This document shows, piece after piece, positions 1,255 to 17,731 of a stretch of DNA of 23,499 nt. The notes below the pieces were generated by a model. It saw only the letters and a list, made by a program, of their open reading frames with translations, was not told where the DNA came from and did no database searches. The position numbers and the translations under genes are program-made. Source of the DNA: Spirogloea muscicola (taxonomy: Eukaryota > Streptophyta > Zygnematophyceae > Spirogloeales > Spirogloeaceae); assembly GCA_009602725.1 (NCBI GenBank), contig WELB01000070.1, positions 145,601 to 169,099 of the forward strand, in the 5' to 3' direction. Positions within the stretch are counted from its first letter, which is position 1, and each line of letters starts with the position of its first letter.

Positions 1255-2361
1255 GTCGAGTGCAGACTAAACAATGCTACATAATACGGAGACCTAATCT
1301 AAGGTACCTAAGATGACATTAGTACCCACGGGTGAGCACAAACAAATCTGACAAGCTAACTTGGGGAGCTGGAGCGCCGCCACGAAAGCCGGAGGAGAGG
1401 TAGCTCATCACGGGGGCGATGGCTTCGAGATACCAGCAAAGGAAAGAAGGAAGAGAGGACCCAGCACTCTGCTTGACTTCGCCGATCCTTTTGGGTATAC
1501 GCTTTCCGAGTCCTTCGGACCTTGTTCATGCTTTGTCGGCTGGCCTTTCATTGCCATCGCCCCCTTTGGAGAAGTTGCTCAATTCTTTGGGTTTAAGCCT
1601 TCACAGCCATTGCCCCCTTCAAGAAAGAAAGCGGCTGCTGATATGAAAGAATCGGCTGTGAAATGCCAGCCAGATGCATACAGGTGTTCATGACGGAGCC
1701 AAAGGCTAGGCAGACAGGGCGCCCTCAATACCCCCGTGTCAGCAGTAGGAAGTCAGATGAGCTGAGGGGAGGAAGAGCAACCCCGCTGCGCAAGCCAGAG
1801 GCTGCTGCAAGGGCGCGACCAGCGCGGCGGTGCAAAGCAAGGAGCTCCTTCAAGGGAGCTCCTCTCGGCAGAGCTTCTTCCGGAAGCGCAAGCAGTTTCT
1901 CAAGGACCTCCCAGGTTTCCCAGAAATGCTGCACTTAACCCCCCTCGATTCCCCTTCCCCAGCTTTCTGCGATCATGCTGTCCCAGCAGCTGCAGAGAAG
2001 CAGCTCTCACCGCCACAGGTTGGTACATTGTGAACGGCTGATGACCACCTCCACTTTGTTAGAGAACCTTTGGCCTCAGCTACTCTGCACGCGGCTCAGC
2101 AGCCCCTGCCATTGCAGGTACTACTGCCGCATCTGAATGAAACACTTGCCTTGCTGAGAAATCATTGCAAGCGGGCGAGCTCCATCAGCGACTTGGCAGA
2201 GCTAATGGCCGCTCCCTGACATCAGGCTCACTCCATGTAGTGTGCAGCAGTGCCTTTTGGAGGCACCAGAATATCTGATAGACTGATTGGGCAGGCAAGT
2301 GCCAAGGTCGATGTCATCATAAGTTCCCACGAAGGACAATGCATGTAGGGTAGCTTGCCCA
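1255..2361. other. Gene-free repetitive stretch, probable body of a second, left-truncated element
   Basis: No frame here has convincing protein similarity. Short modules recur in the same order as inside the 467-1254 element. CCTTCGGACCTTGTT occurs at about 903 and 1511, and GGAGCTCCTCTC at about 1010 and 1853, followed by the terminal-repeat copy at 2362. The stretch is therefore best read as a longer family member whose left end has been lost. This is inference from shared motifs only. Confidence 0.4.
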
Positions 2362-5982: not shown

Positions 5983-8900
5983 TCAAACCTGTCCTTCTTT
6001 CCAGCCAGGGAGCACATTCATGGCATCATTAAGTCGGGTAATCAAGGTCACCTACACAAAACACAAAGCACATCAGAATGAATTTCAGAACAATCACAGT
6101 CTGCTTTTTTGAGAGTCCTACAGCTTACATTGCAGCACAACGACCAAAAACTGAGGACGTCATCAATGCCCTGCCTACCTGAAAGTACTCGGACAGAGTA
6201 CTGGAAATCGGCATCTCTAAGCCGCATTCTACTTTTGATGACACGACTCAATCACTCTAATCTTCACCAGATAACTTCTGGTTGTCACAAATAGCTGCCT
6301 GTGCCTGTCATGCCCTTTCAGATGCCAACCTTGCCATCACAAACAAAGAGCAGCATTGAATAGCCATAAAACAATCATAACTATTCACAAACATACCACT
6401 GTCTCTGGGGCCCCTGCTGGAGGTAGTGTGATGTTCTTGGGCGGTGCTCCTCCTGACCATTCTCGCTTGTCAAAGTGCCACCAACCCACCTTGCCAGGTG
6501 TGAATACGCCCTGGCAAGAACCCACCATGCAATGTGCTACGTCAGAAGTATGTCAAGCAGGCAAAAATAGCATGCGTTAATATGCATCAGAGGTCCATCC
6601 TGCAGGAAAATAATGCCAAGTCAATAAGAAACTTCTGCACAAAGCCCCGGCGTTGTCTCCGGATCTTTGAATGTCTCCTTAACTTTGACATGACAAACAA
6701 CTGCATTCCACGCTCGCAGCAGTATGGCGAAGGAGCTCACGTCCTGGGTGTAGTCACACCCATAGGTGTAGTGGATGATATAGTTTTCAGCTAGGAGTGT
6801 GTCCCATGGTGGTTGCACCATGAAGTCCTTGCGGAGGATGTGATGTATACCATGCAGGGCAGACGATACAGCATAGGCATACCTGCAAAGCAAATGATTG
6901 CCTTCAGTCATGCTTTGAAGGAGGACAAGCACGTCAGACAAAGACGGTATGATAGGAGACTGCGAGAGTATCATACTATATTTTACATGGTGTTTGCTAC
7001 TCTTGCATTTGCCAGCTCCATAGCAGTGTCTGTTCACAATGCATCCAGCTATGGTGTCGGATGCACATGGGGATAACTCACATTTCAAGCACCCAGCCAA
7101 AGACCTCATCTGCTTCTGGATCACTCTTCATAGCCAGAGACATGTTGTGCCATGTGGGTGCAATCTTTTCTAGATCTTTCTGGAGCACATACACGTATTC
7201 CAAAAGTAAGTCAGTTGCTAGCAGTGCTCCAGTGTGTGAGCAACCTCCTGACATTGTGGTGGCATAGAAGCGCCAAAAAGTAGGGCCCCGGCACCTCTGT
7301 GGAGTATTTACCTGACATAGGCACTAAGGATACTTCGATATAAGCAATTCAGCACTGAACATGCTTTGTTGCTTCAGTCCAAGTGCTAGTTGCTCATGCA
7401 GTAATGTAGGTCCCCACAAGGACCCTGACGTGGCTCCAATACATGCTCCCTCGTGACGCCTAGCTGACTAGCAAATGCGGTAACATCTACATGCTAGCAA
7501 GTGCCATGGGTCTGCAAAGATGACCAGGCCCACCTTCTTGATGATGACAGGCGAATTGCCAATTGGGTCAATGTTGGTCACAGGTCCGAGCTCCTCGGGG
7601 TAGAATTTCCTTACAAGTTCTGCGTAATATGGAGAGGAAGACCATTCTTCAGCACTTGCCCTTATGGCACCGGCCGCACACGCAGGTACATCCATGGGGC
7701 AAATTCATAAGAAACTGTCCTCACCGGACTACACAGATGACCCACAAATCTATCCTGGAGCCTAAAAGCAACGACCAAGAATAAGTGCTTAAGGGCCACT
7801 AATGACGACCATCTGAGACAGATGACAAATCTACTTACTCTCATTTTCTTTGGGAGTAATGTAGAAGAAAGGGAAGGCCGCTGGCATGAAGTCTGTTGCA
7901 AGATTTGGTAGGGGCCTCACAAATATGTGGTCGGGCTCTGCCATCAAGACGTATCTGTGCCAGAAAATCGTCTTTATTTCAAGATTTGTAAGAGTTTGTC
8001 TGTGATTGTTTTGAATGCCTGTCCTAGTCAACCCTGGTGTCAGATGCTCCTGTACTGATCCTACTTAAATCAAGCAATATTGTAGGCTTGATTGTGGGCG
8101 TGACCATGGCTCAAGCAACAACTGGAACAATACTGGGCAGCATCTTACTCTTCTTCAATTGTTGCTTTCTTAACCCACTGCACAAACGCCCAAGGTCGAT
8201 TGAGCACAACATAGCCCTGCAAAAGCAAGCTGTGCACTGATGAGACAGCCTGATGTCCACCCTTCTTGCTGCAGTGAGCCCTACGGCATACCATTACTGC
8301 TGAAAGCCTTCCACCTCGAGATGCTCAAGCTGATACTCTGCCCAAGTAAAGCAATTGACATTCCACAAGCATGGTGATGGATGAAGAACAATGTGCAGCA
8401 AGTCTCTGTAGAAGGTTGCTCACAGGACCAAAGGAAGCTGCTCATGAAGCACCAATACAGACCTTATCCATGCCGGGTGGCAAAGGATCCACAACAAATG
8501 TGGGAATCTCCTCCATCATGTTGTCTGCTTGTCCAGAGTGCAATATTCTCGTGAAGCCGCCCATCTCAGACTCGGGCATCTTAGCAAAGTGCTTATACCA
8601 GTGGTACATAATACGGCATTGCCATTTGTTGTACGGGGACTCGTTGGCAGTCACGAGGGTGTGAAACATCCTCTTCTGCTTGGGCGCTAGCGTCGTGGCC
8701 GGCCTGATTACGACGGGGTGGTCCTCAGGGAGTGTGTCCTGCTGCTGGCGAGTATCTGGTTCAGTGCAGGTAAGCACATAAGAAACCATCAGCTGCGATC
8801 AAGGTCTGTAAGGCTTACAGGAGCTGTACTCAAGAGGCCTACTAAGATTAAGTCACAGTGCACCTCCACTGACAGAAGGCCGCGCGTGCTGGTGCTGGCA

Positions 8901-9336
8901 GCTGCGTGATAAGCCTCTCGCAGACTGGTGGGAGAGTACCTGATCCTGACTCTCCACCACCTCGCCGTCCTCCGAGTACTCGCTTGGCAGCGATGACTGA
9001 GGCCCCTGAGGCGTCATCCGTCACCACATCTAGCGTACCACCAGGAACCCCTGTCTCCATGCTCGCTCCATCGTGGCTGGCGTGCTTGCCCGAGGGCGTA
9101 AACACCACGTTCATGGTGTTGTATGTCGCAATGAAGGACGATACTCTGCAGCGAACGCACGGTGTGTCAATGCCAGGACAGGCGAGTCGCCATTGTTGAC
9201 CAAGCAAGACCATGCTGCTGCCCTCTCACCAGCACTATAAGGTGGAATGCTAACGGCAACGAGCGACTACGATCGGCATGACATCTCCGGAAGCTCACCC
9301 GACAATGATAAGGAACGGCACCGCCAGCCGAGTCAT
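5983..9336 (-). CDS. HPAT: Hydroxyproline O-arabinosyltransferase (10 exons, 409 aa, complete)
   Basis: The family transfers the first L-arabinose onto hydroxyproline of extensins and small secreted peptides in the Golgi. Exons are 9336-9299, 9145-8940, 8755-8463, 8216-8149, 7954-7839, 7619-7534, 7179-7082, 6882-6741, 6510-6397 and 6051-5983, and every junction is GT-AG and in phase. Residues about 4-28 (from LAVPFLIIVG to ATYN) form a type II signal anchor split by intron 1, which fixes the start at 9336. A Gly/Ser-rich stem follows. Catalytic-domain hallmarks are FHTLVTAN, YNKWQCRIMY, GGFTRILHSG, PTFVVDPLP, GYVVLNRPWAFVQW, the DXD-like MAEPDH (residues 206-211), GPVTNIDPIGNSPVIIKK, FGWVLEMYAYA, HYTYGCDY (339-346) and GWWHFDKREW. 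At 409 residues it is somewhat longer than the usual roughly 360, mainly from the stem. It lies head-to-head with the GKRP-like gene. The family assignment is secure; the substrate is not visible from sequence. Confidence 0.96.
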
Positions 9337-9635
9337 CCTGGCAGGCCCGGCGCTGGCGCAGCGTCAGCGGCGGGCGTCGTCCGGCGGCCCGGGCTCAAGC
9401 CCGGCCGACTGGCTGCAGGTGGCAGAAGGCGAGCTCCGCGCCGTGCGCGCCCGGCTTCGTGCTCTGGCGAAGGTCCGCGTCGCTCGCGCCCGCCGCGGCC
9501 GCTCTCAACATGGCAGCGAGCGACGGGGCGCCGGCGCAACAGGGAGGTGGACGCCACCGCCGCTCCGGCGAAGCGCGCGCAGGGGCTCGCAGTGTAGCGG
9601 CCGCTTGCGCGTAGCCGACCGCGGTGGTTGCCTCG

Positions 9636-9705
9636 ACGGCGGCGGCGGTGGCGGCAGGCCCGCCGCAAAGGCGGCGGCGGCGGCGACGGCGGCGCCGGCA
9701 CGGCG
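9636..9705. repeat. Imperfect GGC repeat in the shared promoter region
   Basis: Two GGC-rich blocks, separated by GCAGGCCCGCCGCAAAG, lie midway between the HPAT and GKRP-like start codons. Confidence 0.7.
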
Positions 9706-9952
9706 GGCCTGCGATGGGGCCGTTCCGAGGCGGGTGGAAGAAGGTGAGACCGGGCCCACCCGCCGTTCCGTCGCCGAATACGGTGCAGCGACTCGAGGCC
9801 CCCTCCGCCGCCCATATGATAATAATGACCGGGGCCCCCTTTTCGATGTTATCACAGCATCTTTCCATTGCCACGAACGGAACGGCGGAGAAGGGCCGTC
9901 AGACTGCCGTCAACGAACCCCGTCGCCGCGGCTCGAGCCGTCGCAGCAGCCA

Positions 9953-9975
9953 GCGGCGGCGGCGGCGGCGGCGGC
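9953..9975. repeat. GGC tract abutting the GKRP-like start codon
   Basis: An uninterrupted run of seven GGC units ends one base before the ATG at 9977. If translation began upstream it would encode poly-Ala in the same frame, but no upstream start is needed. Confidence 0.8.
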
Positions 9976-9976
9976 A

Positions 9977-12900
9977 ATGGCGGCGCCCGTCACGGAGGCC
10001 TCCAACGAACTGGCGCAGGAGCTGGACGCCGCTGGCGCCCAGGGCATCGTCCGCGTGATGCGCGCTTGCGACGGCCAGGCCTTCGCCGGCTATCGCTCCT
10101 TCCCTGGCCTCCAGGACGCCGAGGTGCGGCGTGAGGAGGCTTAGACGATGGCAGTGGTGTCCGCCGCAGAGCTGGTGATGCAGAAGAAGGAGCGAGCTTC
10201 TTCTGTGGTTGAGCTTGACGAAGCTGACTCCTCTTGCTGCTCATCGGGACCTTCTTGTTGCTCATCCAGATACAAGAAGCCGTTGATGCTCTTACTGCTA
10301 TTGCTGTGGACATCCTAGCTTCTCCTCAGGTACGTCAAATCTCCAAACTGCCTGCCTGCATGGAGGCATTGGTCTGGTCGTCTACTTGCAGCTCATCGCC
10401 GTGTCAGCACCGCCGCAATTGCTCGATGCCAGAACCCTAAAGCTCCTCAACGTACCTACTAATTGGATTATTTTCTGCTCCTAGACCGTAAGCTGGACTG
10501 TGTCAACTGCAGCAAATTCACGCTGTCTTGTGTCAAAAAGCTGCTGGCATTGCCACCCCTGTGACCTTGCCATCCCCTGTTGTTGTGTTGACGGTGTACT
10601 TGTCTACACGTGCCATTTGGGGCTGTTGCTGTTCGTCTACTGTGTCCGTCTCTAGTCGACAGGAGAGCTTGAGCTGCTGCACATCTTGCAGGACAGTGGA
10701 GTCATTTTATCTGGAGCAGGCACAAGTGGCCGGCTAGCATATTGTGCGGCTAGAAGTTACAACAAGCTACTGGCCAGGCGTGGGCTTCCTCGTTCCTTTC
10801 ACTACCTCATTGCAGGTGGAGATGAGGCTTTGTTGGAGGTGACAGTCAGTGCTATTTCGCTCATCATGCTGCTGCCAAGCTGAACCTTCAGATACATGTC
10901 CTTTTGCTAGATTTTTGCCGCGGAGCTGTGCCTGTGCCTATATGACGTGCATGCCTGAGGGAATCAGAATCTTGCATCTGTATTGAATTGTGTGGCAACA
11001 TTTTCATTTGAGCAGTACATCAGGAGTTGCAAGGTAATAGCAGCTTACATAGCTGACAGGAAGCAAGCACTGTTTAGGCACCTACAAGATGCTGAGGCAC
11101 CTATTGCGGGCTGCTTGAGCCTCGAGAGAGCGCTGACTAGAATGCTGAATATGGTGTCAGCAGGTTCAGGAGGGTGCAGAAGACAATGCAGCTAATGCGG
11201 TGGAAAGTTTGCAAGAGCTTGAAAGGAGGGGTACACCTTATGGCAAACAGTACAGCCGTCTCATACTTGTGAGTCTGCTGGCTTTACATTGACAATTGTA
11301 GGAGATCAGTCTTTCAAGTTGGGATGCTGCTCATGAGCTCTATTGGCCGGTATTTCGCAACACTCCTCAAAGCAGAGGATGTCGCTCAGATGCTCTTTCG
11401 ACATCCCTTTCTAGTGCTGATACTGTAGCTGGGAGGGGGTTGATGGGAGCGGTCCGCAGCTTGACATGATGAAGGCTCACAGCAGCCATGTCAATTGCTG
11501 TACTCATCCTGGACCTCCTCTTGTGACCATCAGCTTCAAAGCAAGCACTGCAATCATGATGATGTGAAGCAGTGAGCTTCTTTGAGCAGGTTGGCATAAG
11601 CTGTGGATTGAGTGCCACAAGTGTGGCAGCCCAGGTGCAGGTAACTTGGTCAGCCACTTTTTCTGAAGGCTTGAAGCCATTTTTGGTTGTTCTCTGCATG
11701 CTGACGTTTTCCGGCTCTTGAAGCTCACGGCTAGGTGTCATTCCATGCTCCTGGGCCTGCAGTATGCTATGTCAAAGTCGCACTACGCCGTTGCATTGAT
11801 CGGCTTCAACCCTGCTACTGCAGCTCGAAGGGTCAAGGTATGTCGATCACAATGATCTCTTGCAGTCAGCTGACACAAGGCCCCTACAGTGGCATAGTTG
11901 GATTTAGCTTCGCAAGTTTAGTTTGCTTCGTTGACCCTTTACCTGCAACTTATGTGCACTCTGCAGGTGCAGGGTTTTGGCCATAATGTTCTTGATGTAG
12001 TCACGCATTTAAAGAGATCTGCAGACTTGCAAGTCATGGATGACAGAAGGCATTTTCTCATTAACCCTGTGGTGGGGCCGGTGAGCATGTGCATCCACAT
12101 CTTCTCTTATCTAGAACATGATAGCAGGACTCTCTGTCTACACTCTAAAGGTCTTGCCAAAGTTGTGCTGTAGATCGGCGTAGTTTCGTGTGAAGCAGGG
12201 CTGACGTGTGCTACTTTCAGGAGGCAATAACAGGGTCTACCAGGCTGAAAGGAGGCTCTGCCACAAAGATCTTGCTAGATATATGTTTTGGACGGGCACT
12301 ATCGAGGCTGTTACAGCTACCACTCCTTGGTCAAGGTAAACCAGACACGGGCTTGAAGGTCATATGGCAATGTCAACGTTTCTTAAGGTATTGAGTTGTT
12401 CCTCTGTAGAGCTAATGGTTGACTGCTTGCTTTGTCCATCAGCACCTGTCGCTCGGCAGGTTGCCTCGAGCATGACCAATGGCTCCCTTCAGACACCGAC
12501 CGTCAGCAGCACAGCTTTATCCGGACAGTTCAGGAGCGCAGTATGTGCACCTGCATCCTATTACCACACGCTGCTGGCCTACGAGGGTGTCTACCGTGCT
12601 GCCTACACCTGCCTTGCGTCCACAGCAGTGAGATATCCTAGAGCATATGCCAGCTCATTGCTGTTATATACATAAGGCATGCAAATATGCGTGCCTAAGG
12701 GGATGTCACTGATTTTACATGTGTGCCAGTGCTTTTAGCCCGTTCAATGCTGACTGTGCAATCAGATAATAAGGTGAATCATACCATGCTCTCATGCAGG
12801 CCATATTAGAGAAGGCCTCCGATTCTCTTCAAGCTGGAGGAAGCATCTACTATGTAGGTGGTACAAGCGGCGGCCTTGTTGGCCTCATTGGTATATTCCA

Positions 12901-14596
12901 GCATCTTTCACAGACAAACTTAGGCAGGGGAAATAGATAAACTAGAAGGCAGTGTGCAGATGTGCATAAGTTGGCACACTAGATGATCAAGAATTGCTGC
13001 AAGCACTATAGACCAGCACTGTGGAAGGACTCTCTGTGAACAGCTGATAATGTTATCTGTCATGTCAGTGGAGTTTCAATTGTTGGTGGAGTGTGTTGCA
13101 CCCTGACCTTCCAATCGTCCTCTTTGCCTTCTTCAGTGATGCCATCATCATCACTGCTGAGTAGTGCTGCTCTTATGCTCGCTCTTTGCAGATGCAGTTG
13201 AGCAAGTCCCGACTTTCGGCGCTCTGCCTGAGCACGTGCAAGGCTTCATTGTTGGCGGGTGGCAGGCATTGTCAAGTGCGGTTGCACCTGCAGCTCATGA
13301 TGGCGGAAGAAGTGCTTCCTCTTCGGCGTGCACCTCGCCTGCGGGACTGACCGGCACTAATGAAGCAGCTGTCGTTACAAGAGCTGATGCAAATTTAGAT
13401 GCTGGGCCGGATGAGGAGAGGCTGTCCATCTTAGCCCGTGATGTAACAATAGCATTGTCATCTAGGGCTGGTAATGCTGAAGAAGGTAGTCATGTGGGAG
13501 CACCAAGTGACACGATAAAGATGCAGGCCACAGCAGATCTACAGGAAGAACAGGAACCTGAGAATGCCATGCAGCGGGGGTTGACAGATGAGACTGAAGG
13601 GCCTGGAGCCCCCCCAGGTGCTTCAAGAGTCTCCACCGAGCACTTCGTAAAAGTAGTCCTGCCAAGAGCCAGGTAAGTATATACAGAAGCTGTCAATTGT
13701 GATAGTTGAAGGTTATGGCAGTGTTGGATGCTGCTGCATCAGCTTCTTTATTGCAGAAGTGGTGCGCTGCATGGGAGACTGATGCCAGCAAGTAAGAGAT
13801 AAGACAAGCTCGTGCGTGACTTGGAACTCCATTGCATGTATGTGTCAGGCACTACGACACAATCATTGTTTTGCACGCCTCGGAGGATGACGAGTTGCCT
13901 CCTTCCTTAGTCTCAGCCATTCTCCAGAAGAAGCAGGGCAAGGGCATTCAGCTTGCGCTTGTGACAGTGGGCACCGTTGAGCATGACAGGCTGTTGTGCA
14001 TTGACTTTGAGGTACCAAAGGGGTCCAGAGGATGGGGCTTTCAGGAAGAAAAGCCTCTGCCAGCTGCGTCTCCGCCTGTGGGCCTGGAATCTGTGGCGGA
14101 CATCATTGTCAGGGTGGAGTTGCCGGCCACCTGCGCAGCACCTCTGCTGCCGGGATTTCACTCCCTTGCCGAGCTTGCCATCAAGTATGTCACAAATATC
14201 ATCAGCACAGGAGCTCACGTCCTGATTGGCAAGGTTTATAGGTCCCTCATGGTGGACCTGAGGATCACCAACAGCAAGCTCCTCCACCGCGCGGCCCGCA
14301 TTGTGGCCGAGCTCGTCGGTTTGTCAGAGGCAGGGGCTATGGAGTACGTGGTGCGCGCCATCTACACTGACGACATACTCGCTTTGGGCTTGACATATGA
14401 AGATGTGCGGCTTCTCCCAGCATCGGAGCACATAGTCAGGGCCAGCAGAACCAGACGCATCGTCCCCCTGGCGCTGCTTCTGGCGACCAGCCTTTACTCT
14501 GTGCGGCAGGCTGCCGACATGGTCGCAAAGCCTGTGAGCGTGCGGACGCTGATTGAGGCCGACCTTGCTGCTCGCAAGAGCAAGCTTGTTGGATAA
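9977..14596 (+). CDS. Glucokinase-regulatory-protein-like double-SIS protein (12 exons, 772 aa)
   Basis: This gene resembles animal GKRP (GCKR), which binds fructose phosphates and inhibits glucokinase. Exons are 9977-10123, 10270-10329, 10692-10838, 11164-11268, 11590-11640, 11763-11837, 11967-12080, 12221-12335, 12443-12627, 12800-12890, 13192-13672 and 13849-14596; all are GT-AG and in phase. SIS domain 1 carries SGAGTSGR (residues 76-83), LIAGGDEA, EGAED (121-125), GISCGLSA (155-162) and STRLKGGSATKILL (from 239). SIS domain 2 carries YYVGGTSGG (351-359), AVEQVPTFGA, GFIVGGW and STGAHVLIGK (643-652). Residues about 655-772 form an all-helical region starting with DLRITNSKLL, matching the GKRP lid. 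Most of exon 11 (roughly residues 390-500) is an acidic, Ser/Ala-rich insertion, so the protein exceeds the 625-residue human form. After GTSGR it reads LAYCAARSYN, not the DASEC of MurQ, so etherase activity is unlikely. Its partner kinase, if any, is unknown; plants have hexokinases. Confidence 0.93.
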
Positions 14597-14984
14597 AGCA
14601 TCCCTTGCAGTCTAACCATCACCTAAATCTCCCAAGTTATGACTTGCAGAAGTCTCCTGTGAGGTCGCTGAACATCAAGCGTCAGGAGCAGTCACAATTC
14701 GGTCGGCAAGTTGCAAAAGGCAATAAGCACAAGATGGACATTAAGTGCAATTTACAATATGGACAGCAAGAGTTGCTCCGTCCGGAGTGGCGCATAATGC
14801 TGACACATAATCTGCCAGGCTATTGGTAGCCAACGGTTGCCAAGCTTTGGCCAACGCCTCAGCAGGCTTCTCGTCTCTTGAGGTCTGCATGTGAGTGAAT
14901 GTGATGCACAGACAGTGTTCCTGAGCCTGCCACTGTTGCCAGCGTTCCTCCTCGATTCTAACGCCTTTTGATGTCCTTGCGTGC
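14597..14984. other. 388-bp tail-to-tail intergenic region
   Basis: This separates the GKRP-like stop codon from the convergent MOSC stop codon. It should contain both 3' UTRs and polyadenylation sites. A TGTAA, the polyadenylation signal used by many green algae, reads on the minus strand near 14752. No gene was recognised here. Confidence 0.4.
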
Positions 14985-17731
14985 TTATGTAGCCCTCACA
15001 GCCAGCACCTCCAGCTTGTCACCAATCTCAATGTAGGTTGGCTTGCGTGCTGCCTCATTGCAGTTAGCAGAAGTGAAGTAGGCGCCCAGGTACACCTGCA
15101 CAGGCAGCAAGCACACGGGTTATATATTATCCAAGCATTAGTCAAGTTTGCAGGATTGCAGTAGCTCTCTCCGTAGAGGTGGCTCATTGTCCTTCGCTAC
15201 AGAAGATGGAGCCAAGCCATACTCCGTGGCTATCACAACGTGACAAGTTTGGACAATGCGAGCATGTCATTGGCAAGTCAATCATCTCCACTGTCAGAAC
15301 GGCAACAGGATGTGCGCAGGCTACCATCCATCCTCTCATACCTGTCTGGACTCGTGCTGGAGGAGTCCCAGGGCCTCGCCAGTCCGGAAAGTTGCGAGGG
15401 TCTGCAGCCCGTTCTTGTCAGTGGATTGAGTGCACAAACAAGGCACACAATGCTGAGCAAAACAATGTCACTTGCTCCGCATGGCGCAGCTCACCCTCGA
15501 AGGTGGCATACCTGCAGGGCCACATGCCTCAGCCACCGCCCAACTTCTTACCTTGGTCGGCTCCTCAGAGCCCAGACCCAGGCCTGTCTCCTGGTCCACA
15601 GTGGGCACCTAAAACACCAGCAGCAGCTGTCACAATACGGCATGCGTGTGGACAGTCGCGATGTTCCGCTCCATGGCTGCTTGTTTGGCCAACTGCAAGC
15701 AAGAGGGGCCCGTACCTTGCACCGGGAGCACTCTTTCACAAAGACAAAGTTGGGGGACTCCGCGGCGTCCCTGCTTGCGCTGGAGATGCGGAGCTCGCGC
15801 CAGGTATCCTCCTCCCAGGCCTCTGGCCCCTCGAGAACAATGCTATTACGATGGCAATCGGAGAAGGGAGCCCATCAGCAGCTTGCTGCAATCAAGATTA
15901 TGGCTATCAACATCTCAAAGGAGGATTACAAATAGTGCGTCTAGTGCAAGGTTCACAGACATTCACCTCGGCCGGAAGCGGCTCATGGGCAGCGGAGCTG
16001 GCATCTTTTTGTTGAGGTCGGCATGGGTTGCCTGCAGGACATCTGAACGTGATGTCAAGCCCTCTGCTGAATGCAGGAACTGAGCCACCAGAAAGTCAAA
16101 TATGATAGAGGGCATGCATCAAGGGTGATTGGCAGCAACGCTGCCAGGGAAGAGCTGCGCACGGACTCTGACTTCAGTCTTTGCAATGTGGAGCTGTCCA
16201 CCTTGGCTATCATGTGGAATTGCGACAGGTTCTGGAAGCCTGTGAGATGGCCCTTGGGAGCACGGTCAACCTGCCGCCTTGTGCTCTCTGCGTGCACCTC
16301 CGTGCTGCAAATAAGCAGAGCCGCGAAAGCCGCCATCCTCCGTACTCCTTGCACACTTTATGCCCACACTTCACGTAACATGGTCTTGCACATGGTCAGC
16401 TAGCCTGGGTCTTCAAGCAACACGTTACACTGCAGACTTTCACCATGTTGCAAGAGCCCACTCACTGGAGTCGAAGCGCACAAGGCGAAGGTCGAGGTCA
16501 AGAACCCTGGAGAACCACGCGGCGGCCTCGTCGCCTTCGTCGTTCGCAACCCCCTGCCACATGGACCAGAACTTGATGCTGATGCTGCTGGCCTTCTCTG
16601 GCAGCTTCAATGGCACTTTCAGGTTTGGCATCCCGGGTGCCATGATTTCTGCGCAAGATATGGGATGCGCCCTCAGCTTTGAACAGAAGCTCTGCAGACA
16701 TCTTCTCACCATACACTGCGGTGGCTCTCGTATGACTAAGAACACTGAAATTGGTTGATAGCAGGCTCTGGCCAACATCTGGAGGGAAGGCGTGCCGCTT
16801 ACCCATGGTAGCGTCGTCTGCCAGCTCTTCGCCTGATGTTGCTGCCACTGGCAGGAGTGGCTGGATCGTCGCCATCTCGGGCTTGACGCGCTGCGTGAGC
16901 ATGCGGCCGGACTCAGCGTAGACCACCATCCAGAAGCGGTCGTACAGCAGCCCTGCAAACGCGCAGGCGCAGCAGCAGTTGCTTATGACCAGCCAATTCT
17001 AAGCTCCCTTGCGACTTGCAAACACCTCATCATGGCTTAGCAACAGTCTGACCTGACGACTGTCCAAGCACACCTTGCAGTCCTGAGCCTTGCAAGCCTA
17101 ACAATGCCAGGACCTTGCCCACCTCGCGGACTCGTGGGATTCGGGCTCGCTCCATACCGGTGGTGGAAAGCCGGGCCTTGGTGACGGCGAAGCCGCGGCA
17201 GGACTTGATTGGGTAAATGTAGAGGTCGCTGACGGTGTGGCAGGCCAGCGGCGGCAGCGTCGCCACAGGGGCTCCTTGCGCTTCGGTCGCTGCAGGGGTG
17301 CCGGTCGCACCCCACCCGCTGGTCCAGGACTTGGGCAGGAAGCTGGTCATTGTAAGAGGAGCTGGAATGCCGTCGGCGAGTCGAGTGCGGGGCTTCAGAG
17401 CTCGGGAAGCCGGGTGAGCTCGGATGGCGTGCACGAGAACGTGCTGGGCACTCTGCGACCGCAATGTGGGTGCTGGAAGGAGGGGAACAAAGCGCGGAGG
17501 TAGTGAGAATGAACGTGAATGGGGATACTGTGCAGCAATGCGGGCGCTGGCAGCAAGGGGGGGGAGTGCGGAGAGCGGGCGTCGCCAGCGGCGAGGTGGA
17601 GGAGCTGCAGGCAGTGAGGGAGGGAGCGGGGGAGAAGGGGGGGGGGCTTGCAGACTAGCGGGAGGGGCATGTGTGGCGAGAAGGTGGGGTGGGGCAGCCA
17701 TGGCGGAGAAGGGGAGGCGCGCTGACCTCAT
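14985..17731 (-). CDS. MOSC-domain protein (mARC / moco-sulfurase-C-terminal-like), with probable transit peptide
   Basis: The family has a MOSC N-terminal beta-barrel followed by a MOSC domain that binds sulfurated molybdenum cofactor through a conserved Cys. Readable exons are 17731-17158, 16952-16803, 16648-16466, 16031-15967, 15842-15716, 15608-15552, 15401-15342 and 15095-14985, with GT-AG junctions. Motifs are YIYPIKSCRG (residues 172-180), LYDRFWMVV, MLTQRVKPEMA, APGMPNLKVPL, RLVRFD, then ADLNKKMPAPLPMSRFRP, VLEGPEAWEEDTWREL, CSRCKVPTVDQETG (candidate Mo-ligating Cys) and, near the C-terminus, ANCNEAARKPTYIEIGD. The exon that should carry the DGFPFLL-like strand, between 16466 and 16031, could not be fixed; AESTRRQVDRA around 16290 may be part of it. 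Starting at 17731, the first 127 residues are rich in Ser, Ala, Pro and Arg with almost no acidic residues, typical of an organelle transit peptide. A start at 17350 is the alternative. Confidence 0.9.

Follow-up and report, generated by a model that had tools for sequence, protein, structure and literature searches.

GKRP, the glucokinase regulatory protein, is best known as a brake on glucokinase in animal liver. Its sugar-phosphate-processing relative MurQ (N-acetylmuramic acid 6-phosphate etherase) is a protein of about 300 residues with a single SIS domain. Here, these two serve as comparisons for a gene at positions 9977-14596 of a 23,499-base stretch of the genome of the alga Spirogloea muscicola (contig WELB01000070.1; the whole stretch is termed the window). 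Judged by its sequence, the product of this gene is a member of the GKRP family, with two fused SIS domains and a helical lid that closes over them. The family itself is known, and what is new is a member in an unexpected lineage. Among the titles listed by literature searches on the evolution of GKRP, its horizontal transfer and its occurrence in algae, protists and streptophytes, none dealt with the protein in a green alga or a plant. The best reading of the protein, with a probability of roughly 60%, is a fructose-phosphate-binding regulator of the GKRP family for which hexokinase is the leading candidate partner.

All three Pfam GKRP models match above cut-off, in order and within one chain: GKRP_SIS_N (E 2e-29, residues 81-185), GKRP_SIS_2 (E 2.2e-15, residues 344-404, covering 61 of 191 model positions) and the lid model GKRP-like_C (E 6.4e-21, residues 669-771). 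In a PDB search, the best matches lay between 7e-69 and 1e-63 (top E 7.2e-69) and are chains that, from entry titles, we take to be the GKRPs of Xenopus, human and rat; MurQ followed at 8.1e-22 and weaker. These Pfam and PDB E-values exclude a chance match. The original prediction, made from the letters of the window, had proposed a full-length GKRP homologue with both SIS domains and the C-terminal lid in a plant-type genome, and the domain matches, the PDB matches and the plant-type neighbours described below bear it out. An AlphaFold model of exon 12 alone with seven relatives was poor (mean pLDDT, the predicted local distance difference test, 49.9; lid blocks about 66-86). A Foldseek search with this model returned GKRPs as its first seven PDB matches, then MurQ; the predicted fold fits what the sequence shows and is little further evidence.

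With animal GKRP (human 4bb9, rat 4lc9, Xenopus 3w0l), the algal protein shares the order of two SIS domains and lid, the N-terminal segment, most of the sugar-phosphate pocket, and the equivalents of human Ser179 and Val347. Identity to the animal proteins is 30-31% by BLAST and 35-36% in a MAFFT alignment. The alga differs in carrying a variable insert at residues 405-520 and a second one, in exon 12, of about 30 residues, and in that no glucokinase-like partner was found in its genome beyond three hexokinase loci. MurQ is similar to the algal protein in the sequence of its SIS domain and lid, and differs in lacking a second SIS domain.

Scripted exon joining gives twelve exons on the + strand that join in phase from an ATG at 9977 to a TAA ending at 14596, as had been predicted within these coordinates, and all 11 introns are bounded by GT..AG. 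The spliced product has 784 residues, encoded by an open frame of 784 codons before the TAA; the 772 residues first proposed were thus close, but short of the present model. Both motifs quoted in the original prediction are present in this product. The exons are as follows.

9977..10123, +: exon 1, probable start codon and N-terminal GKRP segment PVTEASNELAQELD..., which aligns with human GKRP AVPITEKSNPLTQDLD
10270..10329, +: exon 2 (exon joining, paralog comparison)
10656..10838, +: exon 3, SIS-1 with GAGTSGR (Pfam, paralog comparison)
11164..11268, +: exon 4, SIS-1, EGAED with Glu136 (human Glu153; paralogs, residue mapping)
11590..11640, +: exon 5, SIS-1, GISCGLS with Ser169 (human Ser179; paralogs, residue mapping)
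11763..11837, +: exon 6, SIS-1 (exon joining, paralog comparison)
11967..12080, +: exon 7, SIS-1 (exon joining, paralog comparison)
12221..12335, +: exon 8, STRLKGGSATKILL (exon joining, paralogs, residue mapping)
12443..12627, +: exon 9, connection of SIS-1 and SIS-2 (exon joining, paralog comparison)
12800..12890, +: exon 10, SIS-2 (Pfam, paralog comparison)
13192..13672, +: exon 11, SIS-2 with Glu379 (human Glu348), then the variable insert of residues 405-520 (paralogs, residue mapping)
13849..14596, +: exon 12, end of SIS-2, C-terminal lid and stop codon (Pfam, paralogs, fold match)

The animal alignment decided two splice choices, each affecting two residues: the VQ that opens exon 4 and the VQ that closes exon 5. 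Paralogs of the gene at two other places in the genome, on contigs C79 and C1, bear on its start. Upstream of the ATG at 9977, the frame stays open for 241 codons in the window and for 301 codons in the C1 copy, with upstream Met codons. Because a stop lies 62 codons before the ATG in the C79 copy, with no Met between the two, the ATG at 9977 is the probable start codon. Since the conserved part of the protein begins directly after this codon, the product is probably cytosolic or nuclear. Intron 1 (10124-10269) is as well conserved as the exons, with 93-95% identity in each pairing of the three copies; the 11 introns range over 75-95%, and its average is the highest among them. In the C79 copy, intron 1 is in frame and open; reading it as coding is ruled out by an in-frame stop in the window and by its length of 155 bases in the C1 copy. 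This sequence is possibly regulatory or alternatively used.

A search of the assembly from which the window is taken (153,112,186 bases in 471 contigs) matched the GKRP lid family at three places: the window, C79 and C1. Stretches of 9 kb around the C79 and C1 copies show an identical 12-exon layout with GT..AG borders, and DNA on both sides of the copies is collinear approximately to the fetched ends (window 8432-16967 and 7754-16909). The three proteins are 89-91% identical, with synonymous divergence (dS) of 0.13-0.18. The ratio of non-synonymous to synonymous substitution (dN/dS) is 0.19-0.21 for residues 1-404 and 0.16-0.28 for residues 521-784, and the three copies are under purifying selection outside the insert. 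In the insert itself (116 residues, about 13278-13625), which lies within SIS-2 and has no counterpart in the animal and eight bacterial rows of the pocket alignment, dN/dS rises to 0.8-1.6, marking a fast-changing segment. The nearby exon 12 insert of about 30 residues is nearly invariant among the copies.

The twelve exons shared by three collinear copies and the dN/dS of 0.16-0.28 in the conserved parts identify this as a real gene in a plant-type, Zygnematophyceae-like genome. Ten neighbouring frames were scanned, and eight have a family match: three to hydroxyproline O-arabinosyltransferase, two each to AAA ATPase and protein kinase, and one to MOSC. The GRAS family has 92 exon-level matches in the genome. 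Contamination by bacterial or animal DNA, or a dead gene, has next to no probability against such plant-type neighbours, and the eleven introns and three collinear copies with open frames rule it out. The possibility that the lid exon belongs to another gene, raised in the original prediction as grounds for rejecting the homology, is likewise contradicted, as the lid exon is part of the same gene in all three paralogs. Three smaller features of the copies were also observed. In the C1 copy, a TAG occupies the usual start of exon 3 (2719-2721 of its 9 kb stretch), and an acceptor three bases later would keep the frame; its stop codon is displaced (6648-6674), adding nine residues. Upstream of the C79 copy, 213 bases inside a gap of the collinear alignment match the window at 93% identity (window 1629-1841, C79 stretch 1353-1564) and are probably a dispersed repeat.

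The pocket was compared through the 19 residues of human GKRP that a figure legend in PMC4109836 lists for fructose 1-phosphate and fructose 6-phosphate; residue 178 is Leu in the legend and Ile in 4bb9, and was scored by the 4bb9 sequence. By alignment mapping, the alga is identical to human GKRP at 15 of 19. The four changes, human to alga, are Gly107Ala, Val180Cys, Ser258Thr and His351Pro. Cys at 180 and Pro at 351 are also the Xenopus residues and occur in 7/8 and 8/8 bacterial rows, and Ala at 107 and Thr at 258 in 8/8. Two positions set the alga and animals apart from the bacterial GKRP-like proteins of the phylum Sumerlaeota that are described below. Where the commonest bacterial residue is present in at least 80% of the 21 Sumerlaeota rows, the only columns common to alga and animals and found in none of these rows are Ser169, which is human 179 and within the pocket list, and Val378, which is human 347 and adjoins Glu348. 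The bacterial rows carry Thr at human 179 (21/21) and Ser at human 347 (20/21).

If the proposed function holds, a ligand would bind between SIS-1, SIS-2 and the lid: fructose 6-phosphate, fructose 1-phosphate, both of them, or a sugar phosphate like them. The bound ligand would then alter binding of a partner protein, which may be the alga's hexokinase family.

Might the protein instead be catalytic, as an etherase of MurNAc-6-phosphate or as some other sugar-phosphate lyase in the MurQ superfamily? Glu136 and Glu379 (human 153 and 348), a possible etherase pair, are retained in the alga as in animals, and these residues alone leave activity possible. The NCBIfam etherase models do match the protein, and section 11 of PMC7052976 reports etherase genes of bacterial type from protists. 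Yet the matches fall below all three cut-offs (161.9 bits against 168, 152.2 against 255 and 143.7 against 302). The alga and animals have Val where the three MurQ rows printed, and 20 of 21 bacterial GKRP-like rows, have the Ser of the DASE motif. Trees split the algal protein from four MurQ rows at 100/100, and no AnmK, which would supply the substrate, was matched in the genome, in searches that can miss (the control matched 5 of 14 genomes). Taken together, an etherase or related lyase is improbable. Membership of MurQ itself, which the original prediction had named as an outcome that would overturn it, is ruled out by the below-cut-off scores and the separate clade. Weak matches to the etherase model, below cut-off and covering model positions 124-192, were seen apart from the three GKRP loci at C126:301202-301408 (E 4e-4) and C316:6298-6498 (E 7e-4). 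They are perhaps other SIS proteins.

For the partner, the Hexokinase_1 model gave nine exon matches at three loci only (on C64, C1 and C10). Three loci, as for GKRP, are as expected of a triplicated genome, a state reported in PMC7994812. At C1, one exon of 96 residues was compared: its best match was rice hexokinase 6 (3e-21), and a plant-length hexokinase-1 (4qs7, presumably from Arabidopsis) matched at 1e-17. The same exon reached about 1.4e-7 with glucokinases of 448-474 residues, and 1.5e-7 and weaker with the glucokinase of GKRP complexes. No vertebrate-type glucokinase appeared among the nine exon matches, of which this one was compared, and no bacterial glucokinase was matched in the genome (control matched in 3 of 14 genomes); searches of this genome can miss. 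At all three loci, the first exon contains a hydrophobic stretch. A hydrophobic N-terminal anchor is a mark of plant type-B hexokinases. Tentatively, the single likeliest partner is this hexokinase family, the only one detected.

A fructose-phosphate binder with a different partner, acting as a sensor for another enzyme or factor, is a possible alternative that we rate below an even chance. It would fit two negative results: apart from the three loci no glucokinase-like hexokinase was seen, and no bacterial glucokinase was matched. It would also fit the alga-specific inserts (residues 405-520 and about 30 residues in exon 12), which fall in SIS-2, the part described in PMC4109836 as directly involved in glucokinase binding. 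Set against this are the pocket and overall form held in common with animal GKRP, and a hexokinase family that is present and likewise kept at three loci.

GKRP-like proteins with this architecture were also seen in bacteria. A scan of genome contigs found five loci, four in Candidatus Sumerlaeota or Sumerlaeia and one in Delongbacteria. Across 40 genomes of the Sumerlaeota phylum, 33 match the GKRP alignment at E 0.001 or better and 24 match in both SIS-1 and the lid (best E at or below 1.8e-57), the remaining genomes giving MurQ-like, partial or no matches. With 24 of 40 genomes in one bacterial phylum carrying them, GKRP-like proteins are, by sequence, not an animal speciality. The original view of GKRP as known chiefly from animals is therefore incomplete, since full-length relatives are also bacterial. 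These bacterial proteins (L005-L008, L011-L028) have the same full-length architecture as the alga at 32-38% BLAST identity. In common with it, and unlike the two animals, they have a segment near the N terminus (alga FAGYRSFPGLQD, L023 FAGYGTYPGLYD); they differ from the alga in having a single open frame without introns, Thr at 179 and mostly Ser at 347. No viral relatives turned up in two scans of viral contigs, each of which was confined to a pair of short peptide patterns. Among plasmids, 39 records match a 414-residue query, none over more than 80% of it; among the 20 of these records that were listed, six name a feature, in each case murQ.

Trees were built with IQ-TREE through treekit from two animals and one alga among eukaryotes and bacteria nearly all of one phylum, with one row from another. 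The animal rows have gaps where sequence stretches are missing, and rat was left out. The bacterial rows are 21 of the 24, leaving out L010 (split over contigs), G026 and G034; L007 and L008 are taken, by inference, to lie in G023 and G020. Also dropped were L014 (a duplicate of L006), L029 (a divergent fragment with unknown residues) and L034-L036 (repeats of L009), and the N-half tree excludes four bacterial rows without the cut motif as well as L009. The pocket alignment displays 8 of the 21 bacterial rows, and the fixed-column count uses all 21.

In the unrooted tree of 27 full-length rows, alga and animals lie on one side of a branch at 95/91, or 96/91 without the partial Delongbacteria row. 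The SIS-2/lid half, rooted on the four MurQ rows, groups them at 98/93, nested among bacteria. In the approximately unbiased (AU) test, with groupings chosen after the first tree was seen, placing the alga with L016/L018 (p 0.014) or with L011 (p 0.007) was rejected, and placing it with a nine-member bacterial clade was not (p 0.152). In the N-half tree, alga and animals are both nested among bacteria. The alga and the animals sit on long branches.

Several observations weigh against a GKRP-type regulator of hexokinase with an origin in common with that of animals. Human GKRP and eight bacterial rows agree at 12-14 of the 19 pocket residues, so most of the pocket belongs to the family at large and its residues are not specific to animals. 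The glutamate pair of a possible etherase is kept. Of the residues that contact glucokinase, only human Asp413 can be placed, where the alga has Glu548; Asp413 or Gln443 forms the salt bridge with glucokinase Arg186, and the human sequence used is without the stretch 443-446. A 914-residue hexokinase-1 matches the C1 hexokinase exon (7e-21) almost as strongly as rice hexokinase 6 does. On origin, BLAST scores for the alga are 251 bits with human, 300 with Xenopus and 271-334 with the 21 bacterial rows, the animal rows being incomplete. Fixed columns number 7 for alga and bacteria, 10 for animals and bacteria and 2 for alga and animals. The SIS-1 (N-half) tree leaves alga and animals unresolved, with the alga beside six bacterial rows at 80/47.

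These last three observations, with the nine-member clade that survives the AU test, are what favours a bacterial source for the algal gene, separate from the origin of the animal gene, with introns gained later: scores with bacteria equal or exceed those with animals, and seven fixed residues are common to alga and bacteria only. This route is nonetheless rather unlikely, given the grouping of alga and animals at 95/91, 96/91 and 98/93 and the two rejected placements. Moreover, when the N-half tree is constrained to unite alga and animals, the fit does not worsen and is 0.49 log units better (AU p 0.594). The trees thus lend weak to moderate support to one eukaryotic GKRP family derived from bacteria. 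Old descent, which the original prediction paired with loss in most plants, and gene transfer are both possible routes. A fuller scenario, of low probability at present, is one old eukaryotic sensor: a single bacterial GKRP-like acquisition before the plant-animal split, or an early passage between eukaryotes, would have lost the pocket signature Thr179/Ser347, and the protein would control algal hexokinase.

Overall, the reading of the protein's identity is right, and the reading of its function as a fructose-phosphate-binding regulator is reasonable but unproven. Even without a function, the algal protein is an outgroup that helps to part ancestral GKRP features from animal ones. If fructose phosphates and hexokinase are bound, a regulator known from animal liver would be present in an algal lineage adjoining the land plants, with a testable origin, and plant science would gain a candidate hexokinase regulator. 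A GKRP in an alga hints at a sensor older and wider than animals. Should the scenario of one old eukaryotic sensor be true, fructose-phosphate feedback on glucose phosphorylation would be older than the glucokinase of vertebrate liver.

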